24,915 bases of DNA from a virus: IMG/VR virus record IMGVR_UViG_3300024518_002266, positions 1-24,915 of that record; one strand, written 5' to 3'. Shown here piece by piece: positions 7,628-23,928 of this stretch. The translations under genes and the position numbers were made by a program. The notes under the pieces are model-generated. The model searched no databases and was not told the origin of the DNA. It saw only the letters and a list, made by a program, of their open reading frames with translations. How positions within the stretch are numbered: position 1 is the stretch's first letter; every line of letters begins with the position of its first letter.

Positions 7628-7933
7628 TTACACCTCCACCCAAGCTAAAGTTCCTGGTGCGAAACCTCTTACTTCTGTTGGAGATATTGTCAATGAATTT
7701 GGAACGGTAGATCCATTACCATCAACTGTATCGTTAGTTACACCTTCATTAATTATGTAAACAGGTTGAGTTGCATTTGCTAGTAAAGGAAGTGTTAAGG
7801 TATTACCTCCATCACTTATCACATATTGATCTGTTACAAGTATTTGGTAATCTCCACTAACTCTTACTAAGTTAGCACCTTCACTAGGAACACCACCGCC
7901 ACTAGTAGATAATTTACCCATCAAGATAGTCAT
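7628..7933 (-). CDS. Small beta-rich structural protein (101 aa), fibre-associated
   Basis: The protein is all-beta in character, with a Gly-rich N-terminal linker (STSGGGVPSEGANLVRV) and repeated short hydrophobic strands (DQYVISDGGNTLTLPL, QPVYIINEG, GFAPGTLAWVEV). It looks like a small fibre-tip or collar domain. Its first residues, MTIL plus a Ser/Gly linker and a xLRV/LVRV strand, resemble the start of the 574-residue fibre protein. Both genes begin directly behind a copy of the 93-residue gene in a TAATG overlap. This suggests both carry the same N-terminal attachment piece left by the duplication. The exact role is unknown. Confidence 0.75.
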   Translation of the reverse strand: MTILMGKLSTSGGGVPSEGANLVRVSGDYQILVTDQYVISDGGNTLTLPLLANATQPVYIINEGVTNDTVDGNGSTVPNSLTISPTEVRGFAPGTLAWVEV

Positions 7934-8214
7934 TACACAACCTCCTGAACAGCCAAGATAACTCCATTATCACTGGAACACCTACACCAAATTCTATCAG
8001 AACCAAAAAGTACATTAGCTACAGAGTAATTCTTCCCCCTACTTGTTATCAGTTTACCCACTTCATCCTCAGTGGGGATAGATGAGTCTTCTGTAATGAA
8101 TACTTTATAGTTACCTTTATTCATTAATTCCATTGCAGTACCTACCGCAATAGTTGAAACTGTGTTGATATCTACCCAACTGTCAGACACAGCCACTTCG
8201 AATACAACTGCCAT
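7933..8214 (-). CDS. Duplicated 93-aa fibre-module protein, copy B
   Basis: This paralogue of the gene at 10162-10443 has the same length and most residues identical by eye (DSWVDINTV, YKVFITED, IPTEDEVGKLITSR, SDRIWCRCSS and NGVILAVQEVV all shared). It is a compact beta-rich protein without a signal or membrane helix. Two cysteines (CRC) are conserved in both copies. AAGGAAA lies 9 bases before the ATG. It overlaps the downstream 101-residue fibre gene in a TAATG. Copy A likewise sits directly before the 574-residue fibre, so an adaptor or assembly role for the fibre that follows is a reasonable inference. I do not recognise the family. Confidence 0.85.
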   Translation of the reverse strand: MAVVFEVAVSDSWVDINTVSTIAVGTAMELMNKGNYKVFITEDSSIPTEDEVGKLITSRGKNYSVANVLFGSDRIWCRCSSDNGVILAVQEVV

Positions 8215-8266
8215 TATAAATTTCCTTAGTAATTTTAAATTATATCAGTGGTGTGCCTAACCAACT

Positions 8267-8404
8267 TTATTTCAAAGTTTTAGGACAATATGAAGAACAC
8301 TCTTCATATTGATTGTATTTTATTGGGTTGTCTCTGTTGATAAATATATTACCTTCTTTAAGACCACCTAAGGTAACTAATGAACAACCTGATCCATTGT
8401 TCAT
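8267..8404 (-). pseudogene. 45-codon remnant of the RREIE/PQCR domain
   Basis: From an ATG at 8404 the minus strand reads 45 open codons to a TAA at 8267 (MNNGSGCSLVTLGGLK..., ending SYCPKTLK). They match the last 45 residues of the 181-residue protein at 10494-11039 almost residue for residue. The first three quarters of that protein are missing. No ribosome-binding site precedes this ATG, so it is best read as the truncated end left behind when the fibre module was duplicated. The frame has no stop, so the duplication is recent or the fragment is still translated. Confidence 0.75.
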
Positions 8405-8437
8405 TAGTTATAAAAGTCAATACTTAAGGAGGTAATA

Positions 8438-10162
8438 TTACCTCTCTGTTAGTATCATAAAAGATTCCAACTCTGCCGTTACATTACTAGTTGATGAAAG
8501 GTTAGCAACTTGCCACTTAACATAATCGTTAACCTCTAACCTGACCGCGAACTGTCCGTCAAAAAAAGCTACATCCCTACTACCGAGTAAACTGCTTACA
8601 GGCCGTCGTTGTATACCGACATCTTCAAAAGATGAAGTATTGTCATTCCATTTTACAATTTTAAGTGCTAAGTCATTATTTGCAGTCCCCTCCAATACTG
8701 CATCGAAGTAGATTTTATAATCATGAGGACTAGAACCTAAATGACGAAGTTGTGAAGGAGACGGACTGTCAAAATGCTCAAGGAGTGAAGTGGTCGTACT
8801 TCCGAGTATATCGTAATAATCGCCTTGTACTGTAATTACTGTAGCCACCTCAGTTGTAATAGTGGACCTACCTCCAACATGAGTATTGTTTACACCAACA
8901 TTACCTTCCCAGTGACATGGCAGTTCAGAAGCCTCTATATTAGGTGTGATGTTAGCATCACTAGGGTTTTGCGCCCCATTTCTTGTTAAGAGCATACCCT
9001 CAAGTTGCAACGTAGATGGATTTGGAAAATTAGATGAGGTGAAATCGAGATAAGATGCGCTGGCAGGAAGGTCTACATTTTGATTAGTTTTAAACCTACT
9101 ATTCATAACAAAACCAGCCCCAGCCTCAAATACAGGACTAGTCATAGCTGGATCTAAACGCCTAACTACAGAACCTTCTAAAAAATAACCCCCACCCCAA
9201 ACTCCTGCTAAGGTTAAGGTCGGTTGTCCTCCAAACCTTCCCGTACCTGTCTCAAAACCTTGCATGTATTCTGTTATAACACCAAGACTAGTACAGTCGT
9301 TATAATTAACCCGTGACATCTCTATAGCACGAAAAGTATCAAGTGCTGTTATGTCATAAACCCTAGAGTTAGTTGTCCCTGTAATCTCTATCGCGAATTC
9401 TGCCCCGATAATATCTCCGCTTCCACCGACAGGAGAAGTGAAAAGTGTGTAGTTGTCATCAGAACAGATTAATTTAGATATATTAAAAGAATGACCTCTT
9501 AATGTAAGTCCTCCTGAAGGAACCTCTATATTTATACCTGTTCCCGTGAAATCTATAACACCATCTAAGAAATATTCAACACTAGATGACAAAGTACCTG
9601 ATAACTCATTAGGAGTCTTAACTGCCACCTGTAAGTCATAGGGATTAGGAGAACCAATTACAGTTAAACCTTGAACTAAGGCTATATCTATGTAGTTATA
9701 CTGTCCATTGGACATGGAAGGTCCATTAGCTAAAGTGTTTAAGGCTACCCCTCTATCATGATACATTTGTATCTCTACTGTATCCCCTGCTGACAAACTT
9801 ACATTAACAGATCCTTGCACATGTGCATTCATAACGCCTGTGACTTCAGCATAGGTCGTGGATAAGTAATCATTAAGTGCACCATTTACATGAAGTTCTA
9901 GTATACATTTCTCTCCAGCAGTCCAAGATTCTTCACTTGAAACAGATGCAGATATATTATAAACTCCTTCAACTGTTGCAGTAAATATACCTAAAGTTCC
10001 ATTCCATTCCCCCAGTACATCATAATCAGTTTCATTATAAATAATAGTGGTGGCCACAGTTGAAGGTATAGCTTGTGTTGTCCCTCTAACAACCCTTAAG
10101 GATGTTACAGGTCCACTGGAGGTAACAGTCCCTCCATTACCAGAAGAATGAAGTATAGTCAT
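8438..10162 (-). CDS. Fibre protein with C1q-like and beta-helix domains (574 aa)
   Basis: After a Ser/Gly-rich start, residues about 25-170 look like a C1q/TNF-type jelly roll (GIFTATVEGVYNISASVS, CILELHVNG, VSLSAGDTVEIQMYHD, IDIALV). This type of trimeric domain is common in phage fibres. Residues about 175-400 are beta-helix-like (FTGTGINIEVPSGGLTLRGH and similar). The C-terminal 150 residues form another beta-rich domain (TTEVATVITVQGDYYDI, FAVRLEVNDYVKWQVAN). It begins in a TAATG overlap with the 93-residue copy A. A perfect 16-base palindrome spans its stop codon. It is most likely one of two alternative or co-existing receptor-binding fibres; the ligand is not predictable. Confidence 0.82.
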   Translation of the reverse strand: MTILHSSGNGGTVTSSGPVTSLRVVRGTTQAIPSTVATTIIYNETDYDVLGEWNGTLGIFTATVEGVYNISASVSSEESWTAGEKCILELHVNGALNDYLSTTYAEVTGVMNAHVQGSVNVSLSAGDTVEIQMYHDRGVALNTLANGPSMSNGQYNYIDIALVQGLTVIGSPNPYDLQVAVKTPNELSGTLSSSVEYFLDGVIDFTGTGINIEVPSGGLTLRGHSFNISKLICSDDNYTLFTSPVGGSGDIIGAEFAIEITGTTNSRVYDITALDTFRAIEMSRVNYNDCTSLGVITEYMQGFETGTGRFGGQPTLTLAGVWGGGYFLEGSVVRRLDPAMTSPVFEAGAGFVMNSRFKTNQNVDLPASASYLDFTSSNFPNPSTLQLEGMLLTRNGAQNPSDANITPNIEASELPCHWEGNVGVNNTHVGGRSTITTEVATVITVQGDYYDILGSTTTSLLEHFDSPSPSQLRHLGSSPHDYKIYFDAVLEGTANNDLALKIVKWNDNTSSFEDVGIQRRPVSSLLGSRDVAFFDGQFAVRLEVNDYVKWQVANLSSTSNVTAELESFMILTER

Positions 10163-10637
10163 TACACAACCTCCTGCACTGCTAGTATAACGCCATTACC
10201 ACTGGAACATCTACACCAGATCCTATCAGAACCTGTAAGGACATTTACCACAGCGTAATTCTTCGATCTACTTGTTATTAACTTACCTACCTCATCCTCT
10301 GTAGGGATAGACGCATCTTCTGTAATAAATACCTTATAACTTCCTTTGTTCATTACTTCTACTGCAGTCCCTACTGCAATAGTTGTTACCGTGTTAATGT
10401 CCACCCAACTATCAGATACAACCACTTCGTATACAACTGCCATTTTTAATTTCCTTAGAGTTTTAAATTAGTATCAGTATTGCCTAACTAACTTTATTTC
10501 AAAGTTTTAGGGCTGTATGGAGAACACTCTTCATATTGATTGTATTTGTTAGGGTTGTCTCGGTTAATAAATATATTATCTTCCTTAAGACCGCCTAATA
10601 TAACTTGTGAACAACCTGATCCATTGTTCATAAATTC
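10141..10637. repeat. Direct repeat, fibre-module duplication copy A
   Basis: Counterpart of 7912-8410. This copy is attached to the intact 181-residue gene, so it is probably the original arrangement, with copy B the truncated derivative. Homology includes noncoding bases between the genes (atttccttag and tttatttcaaagtttta), which shows a DNA-level duplication rather than protein convergence. Confidence 0.8.
10162..10443 (-). CDS. Duplicated 93-aa fibre-module protein, copy A
   Basis: Partner of the gene at 7933-8214, with substitutions mostly conservative (F5Y, A8V, S20T, M28V). Absolute conservation of the CRC pair and of the C-terminal VILAVQEVV, with no length change, indicates that both copies are under selection as proteins. 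AAGGAAA precedes the ATG. It lies between the 181-residue gene and the 574-residue fibre, in the same order as copy B relative to the remnant and the next fibre gene. Its role as an adaptor for the next fibre is inferred from context only. Confidence 0.85.
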   Translation of the reverse strand: MAVVYEVVVSDSWVDINTVTTIAVGTAVEVMNKGSYKVFITEDASIPTEDEVGKLITSRSKNYAVVNVLTGSDRIWCRCSSGNGVILAVQEVV

Positions 10638-11039
10638 TGTTCTGCATTGAGGTAATAAATTCCAAGGAGCTTTTAAAAAGTTACTTAAAGCTAAGTACCA
10701 TTCTTCCTCTTTACTTGATTCCTCAATTTCTATTTCTCGTCTACCTCTCTTTTCTCTGATACGACCTTTAACAGACCCCGCTAAAGCAGTTTCCATTAGC
10801 CAAAAGTAAACAAATTTAATTGTGTTAAATAAAACAAGACATTCATTGTCAGGGTATAACTGTTCCCATTGTTCTAAAAAGTACGCTACGACAGCCCTTG
10901 GAATATCCTCCTCAGTTAGACCTAAAAGTAAATAAATAAGATCAACTAAAGAAGAATCGGGAGGGATGATATCTTCACCACCTCCCCATTTAAATATACC
11001 AGAACCAAAAATACCTGATTGTCGTATTCCTGATCTCAT
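10494..11039 (-). CDS. Stand-alone RREIE/PQCR-domain structural protein (181 aa)
   Basis: I do not recognise the family. After about 35 Gly-rich N-terminal residues (SGIFGSGIFKWGGG) comes a conserved domain of about 145 residues that is also the C-terminus of the 801-residue protein directly upstream. The two share IYLLLGLT, DIP, YPDN, REKRGRREIE, NFLK, LPQCR, NQY and SPYSPK. The first part looks helical, the middle is highly charged, and the end is rich in Asn, Asp and Tyr. It starts 12 bases after the 801-residue gene with AAGGTG before the ATG. The domain may anchor fibres or necks to the virion; this rests only on position in a fibre cluster. Confidence 0.8.
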   Translation of the reverse strand: MRSGIRQSGIFGSGIFKWGGGEDIIPPDSSLVDLIYLLLGLTEEDIPRAVVAYFLEQWEQLYPDNECLVLFNTIKFVYFWLMETALAGSVKGRIREKRGRREIEIEESSKEEEWYLALSNFLKAPWNLLPQCRTEFMNNGSGCSQVILGGLKEDNIFINRDNPNKYNQYEECSPYSPKTLK

Positions 11040-11051
11040 AATACACCTTAC

Positions 11052-13457
11052 TTAAAGTTTAACGTTACCTCTTAAACCTCTTCTACCTATTCTAGGTTTT
11101 GGACTATAAGGGGATGTTTCACTGTACTGGTTAAAACTATTAGGATCATCACGAACTCTTTCAACTTCATCCTTTTTAGTTCCCCCGACAGTTAACCTTG
11201 AGTTACCTGCACCGTTAGCTACAAAATCCGCTCGGCATTGTGGTAGTATTTCCCATGGAGATTTCAAGAAATTATCAAGAGCTGTTTTCCAATTAACCGC
11301 GTTATTTGAATTCTCTACTTCTATTTCACGACGACCTCTCTTCTCCCTACGTTTACCACTCACTGCTTTAGCACTAGCACTCCCGACTAACCAATTGTAG
11401 ATAGACTTAACAGTGTTATAAATAACCATGCAATTATTATCAGGGTAAATTAAAGACCATTGAGCAATAAAGTAATCTATCACTTCAGCAGGAATATCTG
11501 CTGGAGTTAGTCCAAGTAGTAAGTAAATAATACTAGAACCTAATGCAGATGTTGTTACATAGAATGAAGAATCTGCAGTACCTACAGTTACCGTTACTGT
11601 GCTTGTGGTGTTATTATCTAATGAAGAAAGAACTCTAAGAGTTACAGTATCATCATTAACAACTGTTCCTGCTACTGTAGTAAAAGCTCCACCATTAATA
11701 GAATAACTTCCACCTTCAACTTCAATAGGAGATGCACCAGTTAACCCTAGTACAATTTCTACATTAGAAGGGGTTAAGGTATTTACATCAACATCAATTA
11801 CACTGTTAAAAACAAGTTCTGGTATAGGATTTAAATTACCTGCAGTCGTTACTGAGTAATCTGTATCTAATTCACCAACACTTAATGTGATTACAGTCTC
11901 TGTTAAGTATGAAGCAGATGAAGTTTGTCTTACAGAAACAGTGTCATTTAAATCAATGGTTCCTGTTACAGAAGTGAAAGCACCTCCGTTAATAGAGAAC
12001 TCACCACCAGCAGTAACACTTATATCAACTGTATCTGTAATACCTGTTACAGTTTCTGTGTTAGAGGTGTAAACTGTAGATAAATCAGCATCAACTACCG
12101 GAGTAAATACTATTGCATCTGGTAAGAAGCTTTTTACCGTTGTCACAGTCCAATCTGTTGACCATCCTCCAGCATCTAAGGTCGTTATGACGGGAGTAAA
12201 GTGAGAAGATGAAGAAGTAGTCCTTAATTGTAAAGTGTCCCCTGTATCAACTACAGAAGGCGCTGAGGTGTATGCTGCACTGTTTAATGAGTACTCACCA
12301 TCAACCACACTCAATGCTACAGGATTTATTAAACCTTCTACTGTTATTATATCAGATATAGTGACAGTATTTAAAACTATATCACTTTGATCTGTGAAAT
12401 TAAAAGGATATGGCGTTGTATCAGGTCGTGTTATGGAGAATTCTAAAGGAGGAAGTACAGTGCTTGTACTTATGTCTAAAACTTCCCAATTCCCATACAC
12501 ATCGTCTTCAGGATCAACTGTAGGTAACCATGAACCATCTACTGTTAGTCCTACTTCCGATGAAACTCTTAATTGATCTCCAACTTCTGGAGTAAAAGCT
12601 CTGTCATTTACTGACAACCAATAGAAACTTTCTGTACTTCCTTCAGCAGGAATAGGTCCTGTAAATAACTCAGAGAACCAACCAACTCTATTGAGAAGTG
12701 TTAAATCATCTACTTGGACTACAGAAGTAGAGTCATCTGCTATTAAACTTAGTCCTGTAGTTTCCCAAGGAATATTAATATCATCAGGAATAGTACAAGT
12801 TACTGTAGTCCCGACCTGACCATCAATTACTAAAGATTCTCCGCCAAGAGTTACAGATGTAATTGGGTCAAATATATCAGGAACATCAAAAGTAATAACT
12901 CCATCAGGAACAATGTCCCCAGTTAAGTTTTCTATTAATGGTTGAAAAATATCATATGTTTGTTCAGCAGACCTACTATCTGTACTTACATCAAATACTG
13001 CCCAAGAACCTTCTACATTTAAAGCAGGATCTATTGTAGGAACCCATGAACCATCTACAGTCAATCCAACACTATCTTCATACTGTAATTGGTCAGGGAT
13101 TAAAGGAGTTATTCCTAAGTCATTAACTGTTAACCAATAAAAGCTTTCAGTACTTAACTCAGCAGGGATAACTCCGTCGAACAGAATAGAACTCCAACCA
13201 ACCCTATCTAGTAAAGTTAATGCTGGGATATCTGCTGAATCTGTTCCATCACTTGCAGTAAGTGTAAGTCCTGCCGTCCCCCATACAATATTTATATCGA
13301 AAGGGATAGTGCAAGTGACTAAATTAGCCACCTCACTATCAATCGTAAGAGATTCACCGCCTAAAGTAGCAGAAGTGATTGTGTTAAGATCTGTTGTAGT
13401 AAATGTTATAATTTCATTTGGGGCTATAACACCCGTTAAATCACCTATTGCTGGCAT
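11052..13457 (-). CDS. Ig-repeat virion protein with C-terminal RREIE/PQCR domain (801 aa)
   Basis: The protein is modular. Residues about 5-165 and 175-335 are tandem copies of one all-beta unit (TLGGESL, VTCTIP, DINI, STESFYWL, VGLTVDGSW, PTxDP in both). Residues about 350-440, 447-538 and 547-636 are three Ig-like repeats of the kind common in phage and bacterial surface proteins (EYSxNxxAFT, DTVxxRxxSS, VTT). Residues 641-786 are the conserved domain shared with the 181-residue protein, followed by a basic tail (RIGRRGLRGNVKL). This is probably a virion fibre or decoration protein in which Ig domains bind carbohydrate or host surface and the C-terminus attaches to the particle. The latter is inference. 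AGAGG precedes the ATG. Confidence 0.8.
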   Translation of the reverse strand: MPAIGDLTGVIAPNEIITFTTTDLNTITSATLGGESLTIDSEVANLVTCTIPFDINIVWGTAGLTLTASDGTDSADIPALTLLDRVGWSSILFDGVIPAELSTESFYWLTVNDLGITPLIPDQLQYEDSVGLTVDGSWVPTIDPALNVEGSWAVFDVSTDSRSAEQTYDIFQPLIENLTGDIVPDGVITFDVPDIFDPITSVTLGGESLVIDGQVGTTVTCTIPDDINIPWETTGLSLIADDSTSVVQVDDLTLLNRVGWFSELFTGPIPAEGSTESFYWLSVNDRAFTPEVGDQLRVSSEVGLTVDGSWLPTVDPEDDVYGNWEVLDISTSTVLPPLEFSITRPDTTPYPFNFTDQSDIVLNTVTISDIITVEGLINPVALSVVDGEYSLNSAAYTSAPSVVDTGDTLQLRTTSSSSHFTPVITTLDAGGWSTDWTVTTVKSFLPDAIVFTPVVDADLSTVYTSNTETVTGITDTVDISVTAGGEFSINGGAFTSVTGTIDLNDTVSVRQTSSASYLTETVITLSVGELDTDYSVTTAGNLNPIPELVFNSVIDVDVNTLTPSNVEIVLGLTGASPIEVEGGSYSINGGAFTTVAGTVVNDDTVTLRVLSSLDNNTTSTVTVTVGTADSSFYVTTSALGSSIIYLLLGLTPADIPAEVIDYFIAQWSLIYPDNNCMVIYNTVKSIYNWLVGSASAKAVSGKRREKRGRREIEVENSNNAVNWKTALDNFLKSPWEILPQCRADFVANGAGNSRLTVGGTKKDEVERVRDDPNSFNQYSETSPYSPKPRIGRRGLRGNVKL

Positions 13458-15421: not shown

Positions 15422-16471
15422 TTAAGTTAGTTGGATAATAGCTCCAGGCTTAGTAGTCCAATACAGCTTACGGGCTTGAGTTTCCAAAGTATGACCTTCA
15501 TCATTAGCTTCAGTTTGTTCGAAAGAGAACAATTCAGCACCGCCTTTATTAGCCATTGACAACTTGTTAGCAGGACCCCAGTAACCACGGAATAGATCAC
15601 GTGTACCACTAGGAACAGCAATACCTTGACCAGCACCTAGTACTTTAACTTCATTACCATCTGCATCGGTGAAAGAAGGATTATAAGCCATGAAGCGAAC
15701 TCCACGATGCTCAAAGTTATCAACAACACCCCATTTATAATAATCTACGTTTTCATCACGTAAACGTTGCTTACCGCTGTTTTGGTACATGTTGTATACA
15801 TCACGGAACTCAGGATTAGCAACGATCTCATCAAACAAAGCTGGATCAAGGTAAAAGTCAAAACCGCTCATCGCAGAACCAGCTTTATATCCAGCAGAAC
15901 TTTTACGTTTAACTAGAGAGATTTGCTCGTCTAAAGTATTAGCAGCAAGGTCTACTGTGAAATCTGCGGCTTTGTTCAAACCAAACATGTCATACATGTC
16001 AGTGAAACCTGTAGCAGCTCCAGCAGGGATATTACCAACCATTGCTTCAAATCGTAAATACTCATCAGTTTGGTCATGAGCTAGTCTAAGATCCATCAAC
16101 TTATCAGCACGTACAGCAGCAAAAGTTTCTTCCATATCAGAATCACCTGGACGACGTTGACCTTGAATGTCTTGAACATCGATATAGTCATCATCTGAGT
16201 AATAAAGAAGAGCCATTGCAAATTGTTGAACGTCACGATCTTTACCAACATTACTACCTTTAGCACGAGGGTTACTCGCAGGGATCAAACGAATCTCGTT
16301 AGAGATACGATCAAAGATAATAGAAACTTGTGAAGTTGTTTTAATATTGAAATCGCCGTTAGCTCGGATAAAGCCAAACTGGTTATCAATTTCATTAATC
16401 TCGGTAGTCCAATCAGACAAACCGTTGATGTTACTAGGATCGCGTGTTACCGCTTTAAGTAATTCAGTCAT
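15422..16471 (-). CDS. Major capsid protein, lambda gpE-like (HK97 fold)
   Basis: This is the main shell protein. The 349-residue length and pattern fit the lambda gpE family: an N-terminal receptor-like strand region (GFIRANGDFNIKTTSQVSIIFDR), the acidic hinge (DYIDVQDIQGQRRPGD), the spine helix (TFAAVRADKLMDLRLAHDQTD) and a conserved C-terminal segment with VPSGTRDLFRGYWGPAN near residues 288-305. It lies right after the decoration gene, in the order lambda also uses (D then E), and before a strong terminator. AAGGAAA lies 12 bases before the ATG. Family assignment is from motif recognition without a search. Confidence 0.93.
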   Translation of the reverse strand: MTELLKAVTRDPSNINGLSDWTTEINEIDNQFGFIRANGDFNIKTTSQVSIIFDRISNEIRLIPASNPRAKGSNVGKDRDVQQFAMALLYYSDDDYIDVQDIQGQRRPGDSDMEETFAAVRADKLMDLRLAHDQTDEYLRFEAMVGNIPAGAATGFTDMYDMFGLNKAADFTVDLAANTLDEQISLVKRKSSAGYKAGSAMSGFDFYLDPALFDEIVANPEFRDVYNMYQNSGKQRLRDENVDYYKWGVVDNFEHRGVRFMAYNPSFTDADGNEVKVLGAGQGIAVPSGTRDLFRGYWGPANKLSMANKGGAELFSFEQTEANDEGHTLETQARKLYWTTKPGAIIQLT

Positions 16472-18786: not shown

Positions 18787-20433
18787 TTACCCCTTTAAGT
18801 TAAAACCATCTCTTAGTTCTTCTGGTAATGACTCTGGATCGAAATAAACCTTCACATCACCTTTTGTTTTATAAACACCAACAGAATCTACACGGTAAGG
18901 AGATGTTGACTTATTCTCCATATTGTTATCACCACCAGTAGAGTTTTGAGTATTACCTGTACCAGAAGTACCGTTAGATTCCCCTGCCCTCGTTTTCCCT
19001 TCTACCAAACTCCCCATAGATTTGATAAGTTCCTCTTCCGTCATAGCTTCCATCAATGAAGTATCAAAGTTAAGAAGTTGATGATAGTAAATAATATTAT
19101 CTTTTGTTGGAACAAATCCACCGACTGATATAATACGTTGAACCATCTTACTAACTTCATCATAAGATGCTTTATCAATCTCACCGGCAACGATCTTAGG
19201 CATTTCATCAACAGTTAAATCAAACTCATTCATCACATTAAGTAACTGAGGTAACATGTCCTTATTAAGACCATCTTCAATAACTTTAATGTCACGTTTG
19301 ATATAATGTAAGTGTGATGCATTCTTAACTTCAGCACTGTTATAACTACTAGCACCTTCACCTGTTAATGCATGTCCTGCACCCCAAACATCAAAGATAG
19401 CTTTACGTCTATTCTGAATCATTCCAGATGGATCAAACTGTCTACCGGAACCTTCTAACCCTAATAATTTAATACCAAAATCTGAAACAGAGGAGCTACC
19501 TTCTTGCAAATCACTTGGACGTACAAAGTAAGGTTGTTCTCCAGCATGAACATTAGCTGCAGTGATTAATAAATCTTGAACCATCAAATATTCAGGTGAA
19601 GTAGGATCACTATGAGCGATGTCTAATATATCTGCAGGGATAGCAAGTTCAATAATACCTGCTAAGTCTTTTGATGCTCCGTTAACTTCTAGGTCTTCTA
19701 AGAGGACTTTCTCTTTCCACAACTTGTAACAAGCTTTTAATACAGGAGTTCCGAAAGGTGTAGAGTCTGTAGCATTTTCTCCAAATAAGATAAATTTCTT
19801 ACGTGGGATTAACTTATAACCTCTACCTCTTGAATTTTCATTAGGGTCAATGAATAAGTTATTATTATGATAATTTTGGAAGTACTGTGTGTTCTGTCTG
19901 GCAGCTACTATCCTTCTACCGCCATTAGTAACTTCAAAAGGTTGACTTTGATCTAAACTTGCTTGAGGTCTGTTTGCAAGTTGAGATAACTTCCACAAAC
20001 CTGCATATTCACCTTTTAACTCTTTCCTATAAACTTTTTCTAGGATAGAGAAACCTTTCTCTTTAAATGTCTCAGCATTACGAATTGTTTGTAAGAATGT
20101 CTGACCTTCTAAAGTTTCAAGATTATTCCTTACAAAATCGGCAGCAGCTTTACTCTTCTCGCTACCTTTCTTATATTTAACTGTGTACCTAGACCAAGCA
20201 CCCTCAATAAGGGTGTAGTCGTAGTTAAGTACCGTACTGATAGCATCATCATACTTCATAACTTCATATGTTCTCATACTCTGAGGCCATTTAAGTTCGT
20301 ATGGAGCTATCCTGTTAATAACATCTTGATAGAAAGAGATACCTGTAGTACCAATACCTGATCTAGGAATTCTTACAGTAGAGGCTTTCTTTTCTTTCTT
20401 AAGGGTTACTTTAGGTTTTCTTGGTTTTGACAA
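18787..20433 (-). CDS. Portal protein, DUF935 (Mu gp29-like)
   Basis: The portal forms the dodecameric ring through which DNA is packaged and ejected. The 548-residue protein shows the DUF935 pattern: a basic N-terminus, QSMRTYEVMKYDDAISTVLNY (56-76, where family members read similarly), the helix AETFKEKGFSILEKVYR, PRKKFILF, PFGTPVLKACYKLW, and a long helical stem to about 450, followed by a Gly/Ser/Asn-rich hinge (GTSGTGNTQNSTGGDNN) and a short final domain. The start is a TTG behind AGGAG at 9 bases, which gives MSKPRKP; no ATG upstream fits better. It lies between the unknown 212-residue gene and the protease, in the usual head-gene order. Confidence 0.9.
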   Translation of the reverse strand: MSKPRKPKVTLKKEKKASTVRIPRSGIGTTGISFYQDVINRIAPYELKWPQSMRTYEVMKYDDAISTVLNYDYTLIEGAWSRYTVKYKKGSEKSKAAADFVRNNLETLEGQTFLQTIRNAETFKEKGFSILEKVYRKELKGEYAGLWKLSQLANRPQASLDQSQPFEVTNGGRRIVAARQNTQYFQNYHNNNLFIDPNENSRGRGYKLIPRKKFILFGENATDSTPFGTPVLKACYKLWKEKVLLEDLEVNGASKDLAGIIELAIPADILDIAHSDPTSPEYLMVQDLLITAANVHAGEQPYFVRPSDLQEGSSSVSDFGIKLLGLEGSGRQFDPSGMIQNRRKAIFDVWGAGHALTGEGASSYNSAEVKNASHLHYIKRDIKVIEDGLNKDMLPQLLNVMNEFDLTVDEMPKIVAGEIDKASYDEVSKMVQRIISVGGFVPTKDNIIYYHQLLNFDTSLMEAMTEEELIKSMGSLVEGKTRAGESNGTSGTGNTQNSTGGDNNMENKSTSPYRVDSVGVYKTKGDVKVYFDPESLPEELRDGFNLKG

Positions 20434-21181: not shown

Positions 21182-22351
21182 TTACCTAGCTCTAAAAGTC
21201 TTAACACTTCTGTTTCCCATACTTCCCCTCATTGCTGATAGTTTAGTTTTAGTATTATTAGTCGGCATTGGGGTTGGTTTATGTGTCTTAGCTTTAACTA
21301 AGTAGTTGTAGCAACTGGCTGCTCCATCAGGGATATCATCTTTACGACTTGAAGTAGATCTCTCTCCATCAAATGTCTCCAGTTCTTTGTAGAAATGATC
21401 TAATGTCTCCTTATTAAAAGTAGATTCAACTATACTTATAAGTCCATTTTGCGCCGCAGAAGAGAATGGTTCAAATCGAGTTAATTTAGACTTATTAGAG
21501 GGTGTTGGGTCTGATTTAACTCTAAAACCTTCAGCACTGATCTTCTTTGCAATTTCACGATAAGCTGTTTGACCAGATGCCCCAGGATCTATCGGAAGTA
21601 CTACATGGCAATCATCTCCATCAATTTTAGATTGTCTTATAATACTGTTATCACGTTGTCCAGGTCTCTGGAAGACTCTCCCTTTAACCTTAGTGGCCTT
21701 ATCTTCTGTCTCTGGGTCATAGTCCCCAACGATAATGAACTCTCCGTCACGGGTCTTGAGCATCTTCACAGAGGCAGTTGCATCGGGGTGTCTATTCTTA
21801 TCAGATGGTTCAGAAGACGCTAAATCCCAAGCACGAGCCTCTTTACAACCAAAAGGTCTCTTATCTAGCTTATGAAGCCATTCTCTTTGGAAGTAATTAG
21901 ATCCTTCAGGTTGAGCGTGCCAACATCCATCTAACAGACGCATACGGTTAACACGGCTTTGAGCTTTCAAGGCAGAGAGATATTTAGGATTGCTATTAAT
22001 TAATGCTGGGTTATCAAAGATCGTTCCTCCGATAAACAAGAATGTTAAAGGTGCTACATAAACTTCCTTCCCTTCATTCTCATTATAAACCCAACATAAA
22101 TCAGGGTACTCTTTTTCTAACTCTTCAGCAGTGTCAGCAAACTTAGGCATATCATCAACAATTACAAAATGACGGACAACTCCTAGTTTATTTTCATCAA
22201 AGTATCCTTCTTCATCAAGATACCAACTTACCCAATGATATACCCAAGATTGATAATCAGGGTTAGTTGTTGCTAAGAGGAATGAATCATTATCTGCTGC
22301 AGATCGTAACCTTCCAATCAAGTAAAGGAATTGACTTTGTTCAAAATGTGT
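21182..22351 (-). CDS. terL: Terminase large subunit TerL, exon 3 (nuclease domain)
   Basis: TerL is the DNA-packaging motor: an N-terminal ATPase pumps DNA through the portal and a C-terminal RNase H-like nuclease cuts the concatemer. Joining exons 23929-24009, 23385-23681 and 21182-22351 gives 515 residues, normal family length. Exon 3 starts at ACA CAT TTT (Thr127-His-Phe), directly after the Walker B Asp-Glu-Leu of exon 2, restoring FDELTHFEQSQFLYLIGRL. It also carries the coupling motif LLATTNPD (151-158) and the nuclease acidic residues Asp302 (ARAWDLA), Asp381 (LPIDPGASG) and Asp468 (DIPDGAAS). Its frame is open from the predicted splice site with no stop. A TTG at 22321 can be mistaken for a start codon; it is Leu137. 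Confidence 0.93.
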   Translation of the reverse strand, partial: THFEQSQFLYLIGRLRSAADNDSFLLATTNPDYQSWVYHWVSWYLDEEGYFDENKLGVVRHFVIVDDMPKFADTAEELEKEYPDLCWVYNENEGKEVYVAPLTFLFIGGTIFDNPALINSNPKYLSALKAQSRVNRMRLLDGCWHAQPEGSNYFQREWLHKLDKRPFGCKEARAWDLASSEPSDKNRHPDATASVKMLKTRDGEFIIVGDYDPETEDKATKVKGRVFQRPGQRDNSIIRQSKIDGDDCHVVLPIDPGASGQTAYREIAKKISAEGFRVKSDPTPSNKSKLTRFEPFSSAAQNGLISIVESTFNKETLDHFYKELETFDGERSTSSRKDDIPDGAASCYNYLVKAKTHKPTPMPTNNTKTKLSAMRGSMGNRSVKTFRAR

Positions 22352-23384
22352 CAGTTATGTTCAAAGAAGATCGCTACATCTTCTCCAGTTCTCTTATGAA
22401 CTTCTGCATGTTTCCATACAGCTCAGACTATATCATCACCCTTTCAAGAGGGTGCTGTGCGCTTCGGTCATCAAAAGCTTATGACCTACTCTACTAACTC
22501 CTTTTCAGGGTTTTCGATAGTCGTTGCACGCCATGTTTATAAGTATAGTAATTAAAATTTTAAGTTTTTTGTTATTCTTTTATAGCTCTTTCTGTCTCTA
22601 ATACTCTTAATCTTCCTGACAGTTAAAGAATTGTTAGTACTAATATTAAGTACCTCTTTATCTGTTAATCCACTAGAGATCTGATGACATATCCATTTTA
22701 TAGTATTTTCTGATAACAAGTTATAATCCTTAGTACTATTAAGGTCATAGTTAAGTGTTATATTTTTGAAACAACTTTGGTTTTGTATATTCTTTACTAC
22801 AGACTTACTCACCCTTTTAATCTTAGCAATGTCTATAGGTCTTGTACCTTCCATTAAGTACTGGCAGATACTTATTACATCTCTCTCTGTAAGTTTCGTA
22901 TTTGGACTGTCAGTACTAGAAGCTTTATGATGAAGTCCTGAATCATATGCATGTTGCACGTTTTCTGAGACTGTACACCATTCAAGGTTACTTATACTAT
23001 TGTTTCTTTTATTACCATCTTTATGGTTAACTACTGGTTTATTATCAATATTATGTAAAAAACTTTCAGCTAATAACCTGTGAACATATTTAGTTTTTCT
23101 TACACCGTTGTCATTTATAATAGCAACAGTTAAGTAATTACCAAATCCAGTACCTCTTGGTATTAACGTATAATCTCTTTTTATATTAACAACATCACCA
23201 TTTCTTGATATTGTATAATTACTAAAATTTTCTATAACTTTCTTCATAAGTATTTCCCCTACTGAGATTCGTGGTATACTTATAAACACATCGCTCAGGA
23301 TTACCTCCAACATAACTTGGTAAGGCTTCCCCTGAATTCACACAGTTTTCGATGTACATTACTGTACAAAGGCTCTACAAATTA
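22352..23384 (-). mobile_element. Group I intron 2 in terL, carrying an HNH homing endonuclease
   Basis: This 1033-nt intron follows exon bases GAGCTT and ends in G before ACACAT. P1: exon GCUU pairs with intron GAGC, with a U-G at the splice site. P3: CUGUGU with GCACAG. P4 elements are AAUUCAGGGGAA and AAUCCUGAGC. P7: GACUAU (22522-22517) with AUAGUC (22431-22426). P8: CACCCU/AGGGUG. A hairpin insertion between P7 and P3 (GGUCAU/AUGACC) points to subgroup IA. The endonuclease gene sits in the P6a loop, closed by a perfect 13-bp inverted repeat (22535-22547 and 23275-23287). Invasion here interrupts the Walker B region of an essential gene, the usual choice of such elements. Confidence 0.92.
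22552..23247 (-). CDS. Intron-encoded HNH homing endonuclease (231 aa)
   Basis: The enzyme cuts intron-less alleles of the target gene so that the intron is copied in. From the ATG at 23247 (AGGGG 8 bases before it) it starts MKKVIENFSNYTISRNGDVV, a NUMOD4-like start. An HNH_3-type core follows: YVHRLLAESF, VVNHKDGNKRNNSISNLEW, CTVSENVQHAYDSG, with the His-Asn-His residues in place. Two C-terminal helix-turn-helix repeats (KLTERDVISICQYL... and LLSENTIKWICHQI...) should contact the target DNA. The frame stays open to an ATG at 23313, but that would run through the intron P4-P6 core and lacks a ribosome-binding site, so I reject the longer form. It appears intact. Confidence 0.92.
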   Translation of the reverse strand: MKKVIENFSNYTISRNGDVVNIKRDYTLIPRGTGFGNYLTVAIINDNGVRKTKYVHRLLAESFLHNIDNKPVVNHKDGNKRNNSISNLEWCTVSENVQHAYDSGLHHKASSTDSPNTKLTERDVISICQYLMEGTRPIDIAKIKRVSKSVVKNIQNQSCFKNITLNYDLNSTKDYNLLSENTIKWICHQISSGLTDKEVLNISTNNSLTVRKIKSIRDRKSYKRITKNLKF

Positions 23385-23681
23385 AAGCTCATCGAACCCG
23401 ATCGCGGAGTATTGGAGACCCTGATGGTTCTTTTCTGCATCTTGCTCATGTTCAATATGAGTAAATTCAATACTACCTGCACCATTAAAAGTAACCTTCA
23501 TTGGCTGCTCTTTAGATCTTATACCAATAGGTTTGTACAGTTTCTTAGCTTCTGTAAATAAACCACCTGCAGCTTTTAAAGGAGGGGATGTTCTTCGAAA
23601 GATTACCCCTTCGAAATTATCATCAGTTGCTGCATAATAACCTACTTTGTTTAAAAGAAGTCTACTCTTACCACTACCTGC
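23385..23681 (-). CDS. terL: TerL exon 2 (ATPase domain, Walker A to Walker B)
   Basis: This exon gives residues 28-126 of the joined terminase. It begins AGSGKSRLLLN, the second half of the P-loop with Lys32 and Ser33. It continues through VIFRRTSPPL, with an arginine pair typical of TerL adenine or trans-acting motifs, and ends at GFDEL, Walker B with Asp124 and catalytic Glu125. A TAA stop appears at once in the unspliced frame (23384-23382), so exon 2 alone would make a dead fragment. The frame is open across all 99 codons. The only in-frame ATG, at 23684, belongs to the last bases of intron 1 and has no ribosome-binding site, so it is not the true start. Confidence 0.93.
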
Positions 23682-23928
23682 CATAATGGTTAAATGTTAC
23701 AGTGCAACCGTCTCCGCTACACCTCTGTATGTTTCTATACAGATCAGATCATATCTTCATCCTTTCTCATAAAAGGAGCCTCACGTTTCGAATCTACTTA
23801 GACCCTACGAGCACAATGCTCTGATCGTTACACCCATGAATTTAATCATTCGGCTCGGTATTGCCCTCATCTCAATGTTAGGGGTTCCACCGAATTAGCG
23901 AGGTTTAAAGGCACCACAGGAATTATTT
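23682..23928 (-). ncRNA. Group I intron 1 in terL, ORF-less ribozyme (247 nt)
   Basis: The intron follows exon GGUGGCGCU and ends in G before GCAGGU. P1: exon GGCGCU pairs with intron GGUGCC, with the expected U-G at the splice site. P3: CCUCGC with GUGAGG. P4: CGGU with ACCG inside AAUUCGGUGGAA and AAUACCGAGCC. P7: GAUCA (23826-23822) with UGAUC (23751-23747). P8: UCCUUU/AAAGGA. P6a is a tiny GAAU/AUUC hairpin exactly where intron 2 holds its endonuclease gene. It interrupts the P-loop codons between Ala27 and Ala28. It contains stop codons in the exon frame (first TAA 3 bases in), so splicing is required for terminase. Confidence 0.92.

Follow-up and report, generated by a model that had tools for sequence, protein, structure and literature searches.

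Paired head-tail connector adaptor genes, one of them fused to a long repeat array, in a viral genome fragment

In the usual description, a connector adaptor forms a homomeric ring from the product of one gene, and the appendages of the neck are separate neck-binding proteins. In the solved necks of other phages, a ring of twelve adaptor subunits lies below the portal, and the beta-hairpins of these subunits form the DNA exit tube. The adaptors of phage 812 (gp96), Milano (gp14), T4 (gp13) and T7 (gp11) combine the adaptor core with an outer beta-sandwich which, in 812 and Milano, is located at the periphery of the neck and contacts the capsid (PMC12886913, PMC10491603). The hairpins of the twelve adaptor subunits of phage 812 together build a narrow tube for the DNA, reaching into the stopper (PMC12886913). 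The whiskers of phage Sf14 (gp30/gp31) are attached via the adapter gp37 (PMC11821841), and the neck ring of A-1(L) bears fibres (gp82-gp81-gp80; PMC10966104).

The stretch of DNA analyzed here (the window; 24,915 nucleotides of the IMG/VR virus record IMGVR_UViG_3300024518_002266) encodes two intact copies of a domain of ~150 residues (Table 1). One copy spans the 181-aa protein from about residue 30 onward and the other is the C-terminus of an 801-aa protein, in agreement with the preliminary description of this sequence except for the end coordinate given there, 11970, which falls within the repeat region of the 801-aa protein, outside the domain. The similarity between the copies is not due to chance because phrog_2663 matches both proteins (E 3.5e-21 for the 181-aa protein and E 7e-27 for the 801-aa protein); searches of Pfam and NCBIfam with the domain returned no matching model. 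A profile built from six family members, the 181-aa protein included (A1), retrieved from the PDB the "PhiTE adaptor protein" (9cc7, 9mjn; E 8e-55 for chain 9cc7_D) and "Phi92_gp126" (21vl; E 5.5e-17), and the 801-aa sequence alone, when used as a phmmer query, matched 9cc7_D over residues 645-792 with E 3.5e-12 and Phi92 gp126 with E 4e-5. In one Vibrio phage record (H121), the match is annotated as "putative head completion adaptor". The domain can be identified, with little room for doubt, as the adaptor ('neck 1') of the head-tail connector in contractile-tailed phages of the phiTE/rV5 type. The preliminary description could not place the domain in a known family, guessed at a docking or head/neck attachment role and named a profile match to a well-characterised family as grounds for abandoning that guess; the search did return a characterised family (the unnamed phrog_2663 together with the PDB chains), yet one of the kind that was guessed, a neck-ring protein by its matches to 9cc7/9mjn and 21vl. 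The assignment also provides a functional name for phrog_2663, which is listed in PHROG as of unknown function and, in the majority of the phage records with a match that were examined, is annotated as 'hypothetical'.

Table 1. Features of the adaptor locus and its surroundings (positions in the window)
Feature	Coordinates	Strand	Basis
Downstream cassette copy: adaptor tail, spacer, 93-aa gene, start of next ORF	7926..8409	-	Repeats D1, D2
Stub: 45-codon copy of adaptor 3' end (138 bp)	8267..8404	-	88% identity; in-frame stop before
Upstream cassette copy, covering the 93-aa gene 10162-10443 and the last part (3' end) of the 181-aa gene	10155..10636	-	Repeats D1, D2
181-aa ORF, stand-alone head-tail adaptor (phrog_2663 type)	10494..11039	-	phrog_2663 E 3.5e-21; model top match 9cc7_C
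801-aa fusion ORF, repeats then adaptor domain	11052..13457	-	Self-comparison; phrog_4924; twin contig
Second adaptor domain, residues 641-801 (C-terminus of 801-aa protein)	11055..11537	-	phrog_2663 E 7e-27
Predicted beta-hairpin of fused copy, residues 702-715, REKRGRREIE inside	11313..11354	-	DSSP of model
Major capsid protein (phrog_29)	15422..16471	-	PHROG E 1.5e-40; 54% identity to Aeromonas Plateaulakevirus MCP

Structure prediction, proposed as a check in the preliminary description, points to the same protein. The AlphaFold2 models of both copies, built from 15-16 sequences only, consist of helices and a single beta-hairpin and accordingly display the helical core of a phiTE-type adaptor, with pLDDT mostly 80-95 in the core and 65-68 in the hairpin for the fused copy, and 70-88 and 50-54, respectively, for the 181-aa copy. 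In Foldseek searches, the PhiTE connector chain 9cc7_C was the top match (E 2.5e-5 for the 181-aa model and E 1.1e-6 for the fused-copy model) and, for each model, the sole match below 0.001. Given that alignment with 9cc7_C yields moderate TM-scores (181-aa model, 0.50 and 0.56; fused copy, 0.53 by target length) and a large rmsd, this fold match, which also rests on the sequence, is a corroboration rather than a proof. In the fused-copy model, DSSP assigns the hairpin strands to positions 307-312 and 315-320 of the modelled stretch. The REKRGRREIE motif, identical in the two copies, lies within this predicted hairpin, in which 11 of 13 residues are identical between the copies vs 81 of 149 overall (p 0.02, for a region chosen afterwards). 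If phage 812 is taken as a guide, the near-invariant EKRGRREIE block is predicted to form the hairpin that lines the channel for DNA in the adaptors of other phages.

The two adaptor genes lie side by side and apparently derive from a single ancestor within the virus's own lineage. The paralogs share 81-82 identical residues out of 149 (~54%) and 59.5% of the DNA; dS is saturated and dN is 0.39. The basic C-terminal tail of the fused copy is comparable to that of the relatives and is missing in the 181-aa copy, which terminates in SPYSPKTLK. The N-terminal extension of ~28 residues (MRSGIRQSGIFGSGIFKWGGGEDII...) is unique to the 181-aa protein; this short SGI-repeat stretch (10956-11039, minus strand; SGIRQSGIFGSGIF) has no counterpart in the other aligned adaptors. 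Branch lengths in the tree (0.98 for the 181-aa copy vs 0.28 for the fused copy) hinted at asymmetric evolution of the copies, an idea that was dropped after relative-rate tests with four outgroups detected no difference between them (p 0.42-0.58).

Possession of two copies sets this virus apart from its relatives. A tblastn search with the 181-aa query found four phages only, and the fused-copy query, at an E-value limit of 1 such that the weakest matches are unproven relatives, found 210 phage records, mostly of phages of enterobacteria, each with a match in one place. A second copy detectable by tblastn is excluded in these 210 records, the count being one of matches and not of ORF lengths. 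Profile searches of the fetched loci and of eight whole records showed a single adaptor in all cases apart from this virus and a twin contig (IMGVR_UViG_3300024520_000403, hereinafter L003) that contains the adaptor twice along with the stub. The stand-alone adaptor ORFs in the other fetched loci are 165-225 aa long, and a single stand-alone gene is the usual, although not strictly defining, organization, whereas here there are two intact copies, one of them fused. When viral contigs were searched for further fused relatives, with A1, A2 and A7 as well as with the repeat part and the isolated fused domain, the twin contig alone was recovered, and a genome scan for prophage relatives with A7 yielded 93 pattern matches, none of which was confirmed.

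In the 801-aa protein, the adaptor domain is preceded by ~640 residues of tandem repeats. Self-comparison reveals two tandem repeats of 172 aa starting at residue 1 (offset 172), followed by units spaced by 98 aa, likely three, that begin at about residue 345-370 and extend to about residue 640 (offset 98). The phrog_4924 family (short tail fibre) matches the protein in three stretches, the best one at 396-584, and the nearest annotated relatives of the repeats are cyanophage fibre and outer-capsid proteins. The label of 'Ig protein' that was initially attached to this ORF was not borne out: Pfam Ig families, sought as the mark of a Hoc-like protein, match neither the 801-aa protein nor two cyanophage relatives of the repeats, and the repeats, although predicted to be beta-rich, yielded a poor fold model with pLDDT mostly below 50. 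The fusion is not an assembly error because it is intact in the twin contig; across 16,262 bases, this contig is 99.84% identical to the window, with 26 substitutions and without indels. No ATG, GTG or TTG start codon is present near the junction of the repeats and the adaptor domain; the fused domain should therefore be made only within the 801-aa protein.

The major capsid protein (MCP) gene is located 5' of the adaptor genes, and the adaptors follow it within the head/neck block, an order shared with Vibrio phage 1.101.O, the IMG/VR contig L008 and Vequintavirinae. The portal is encoded at 18787-20433. In Serratia and Escherichia Vequintavirinae, the adaptor gene sits between the MCP gene and the neck, sheath and tube genes; in 1.101.O, the adaptor follows the MCP, and the neck, head-closure and sheath genes form a separate block. 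Since the window is a 24.9-kb fragment without tail genes, the myovirus morphology is deduced from the relatives (1.101.O has a sheath). Of the 26 substitutions that distinguish the window from the twin contig, 15 cluster in a 54-bp segment of the MCP gene (15890-15943), which has the appearance of a local tract of recombination or conversion. An HNH endonuclease ORF (22552-23313) splits the gene for the terminase large subunit (21182-23684, minus strand) into two parts, 23382-23684 and 21182-22321; this may reflect either an intron or an intervening homing gene and resembles the arrangement in Aeromonas phage phiA047.

A third, partial occurrence of the domain is the stub, which encodes MNNGSGCSLVTLGGLKEGNIFINRDNPIKYNQYEECSSYCPKTLK followed by a stop codon and has an in-frame TAA two codons ahead of its ATG. 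Compared with the end of the 181-aa gene, the stub matches in 39 of 45 residues and in 88% of the bases. The stub is present where it was originally noticed but is not an isolated survivor: it lies within repeat D2, where it forms the leading edge of a duplicated cassette of ~480 bp (82-88% identity between the copies). The earlier argument for docking from repeated use of the domain beside fibre genes accordingly applies to the 801-aa fusion but not to the stub, a duplication remnant, and in the stub the SPYSPK block, previously regarded as nearly invariant, reads SSYCPK. The differences between the stub and the 181-aa gene, 6.5 nonsynonymous and 9.5 synonymous, fit either a constrained stub or free drift beside a constrained gene; probably, the stub is a relic of recombination or duplication without function. 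Because of its position at the leading edge of the cassette, it suggests that the second set of fibre genes (7933 down to 5558) was gained or duplicated through cassette homology. The 93-aa proteins encoded in the two cassette copies (phrog_4770; 7933-8214 and 10162-10443) are 87% identical (dN 0.07, dS 1.1), and each of their genes is located directly upstream of an ORF starting with MTI. In the relatives L004, L008 and L009, there is one phrog_4770 gene, likewise upstream of a fibre-like ORF, and the 93-aa protein is possibly a fibre partner or attachment protein. At its N-terminus, the neighboring 574-aa protein (8438-10162) has a domain resembling C1q (PF00386, E 3e-7), and its body belongs to phrog_16509. 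PDB searches with the 93-aa, 574-aa and 623-aa neighbors gave no credible match.

On balance, it is probable, albeit far from certain, that this locus encodes a pair of adaptors that are both ring-competent, with the fused one anchoring a neck whisker and the stub being a mere relic. The stand-alone 181-aa protein and the 801-aa fused protein would both enter the connector ring, the fused subunits would carry their arrays of ~640 residues outward from the neck, and each array would be a covalent whisker or collar fibre, not one clipped on via a separate protein. In its most specific form, which is tentative and falls somewhat short of probable, the proposal is that the adjacent paralogs supply plain and array-bearing subunits to a hetero-oligomeric adaptor ring, such that the ring around the DNA channel carries covalent whiskers. 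There are 31 alignment columns in which 80% or more of the remaining family members agree; the 181-aa copy retains 22 of these and the fused copy 23. Because the hairpin and the conserved columns are kept equally, comparison of the sequences favours two functional adaptors over one adaptor accompanied by a docking module; membership of both in one ring would be a separate step.

Under a different scenario, the 181-aa protein alone would form the ring, and the fused domain would be an adaptor-derived docking module that binds to the exterior of the neck or to a vertex of the capsid without ever becoming part of the ring. One adaptor suffices in every other genome checked, and fusion to a long array resembles a fibre anchor, but this scenario is unlikely considering that the fused domain retains the REKRGRREIE hairpin unchanged along with the conserved residues, both of which should have been lost from a module that served for docking only. 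Alternatively, the 801-aa protein alone could form the ring, the 181-aa copy being a spare or a diverged accessory such as an assembly factor. The basic tail typical of the relatives is indeed retained only by the fused copy, and the 181-aa copy has an unusual terminus, an odd N-terminal extension and the longer branch. Nevertheless, the relative-rate tests indicate no excess change in the 181-aa copy, most of the conserved columns persist in it, and crowding is expected from twelve arrays of 640 residues, making this possibility quite improbable. The two adaptor genes could also be specialised for different jobs. That the copies and the stub are debris of recent recombination, and the fusion a read-through accident without a role in the virion, is highly improbable: the stub and the duplicated cassette do show that the region recombines, but the full copies are old, open throughout and intact in the second genome. 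If the pair of ring-competent adaptors is real, a paralogous pair with an array fusion would represent a direct route for the origin of neck whiskers and a natural test of whether a 12-fold ring accepts two kinds of subunits.

Among the characterized systems, the adaptor of Pectobacterium phage phiTE (PDB 9cc7/9mjn) is homologous to the domain described here over its whole length and occupies the same place in the head block, but is encoded by one stand-alone gene of 175 aa, without fusion or a second copy (one match in L016/G004, a record equal in length to phiTE). Gene 110 of Vibrio phage 1.101.O (MG592473) and its counterpart in L008 are among the closest stand-alone adaptors, with 36-38% identity to the 181-aa copy. 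As in the window, the adaptor in these genomes is followed by a gene of ~120-135 aa, a phrog_4770 gene and long fibre genes; unlike in the window, there is a single adaptor of 165-175 aa without a repeat array. The Aeromonas Plateaulakevirus phages (phiA047, TS9 and PhAER-3) have the MCP that is 54% identical to the one in the window and is likewise followed by the adaptor, and phiA047 also has a homing endonuclease gene in the terminase region. These phages, however, possess a single adaptor (one match in the whole record of phiA047), and head/neck-sized and structural genes directly follow it, without intervening fibres.

With respect to architecture, the adaptors of 812, Milano, T4 and T7 each carry one beta-sandwich, inserted in the helical domain in the case of Milano, whereas here there is an N-terminal array of ~640 residues and a second adaptor gene. 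The appendages that project from the neck in Sf14, T4 (fibritin) and A-1(L) resemble the projection that is proposed for the arrays. However, all of these appendages are proteins in their own right that attach to the neck (PMC11821841 for Sf14, PMC10966104 for A-1(L)), in contrast to the array in the window, which is covalently joined to an adaptor domain. Altogether, the unusual aspect of this locus is the arrangement, with two intact adaptor copies one of which is fused, and not the domain family, which is already known.
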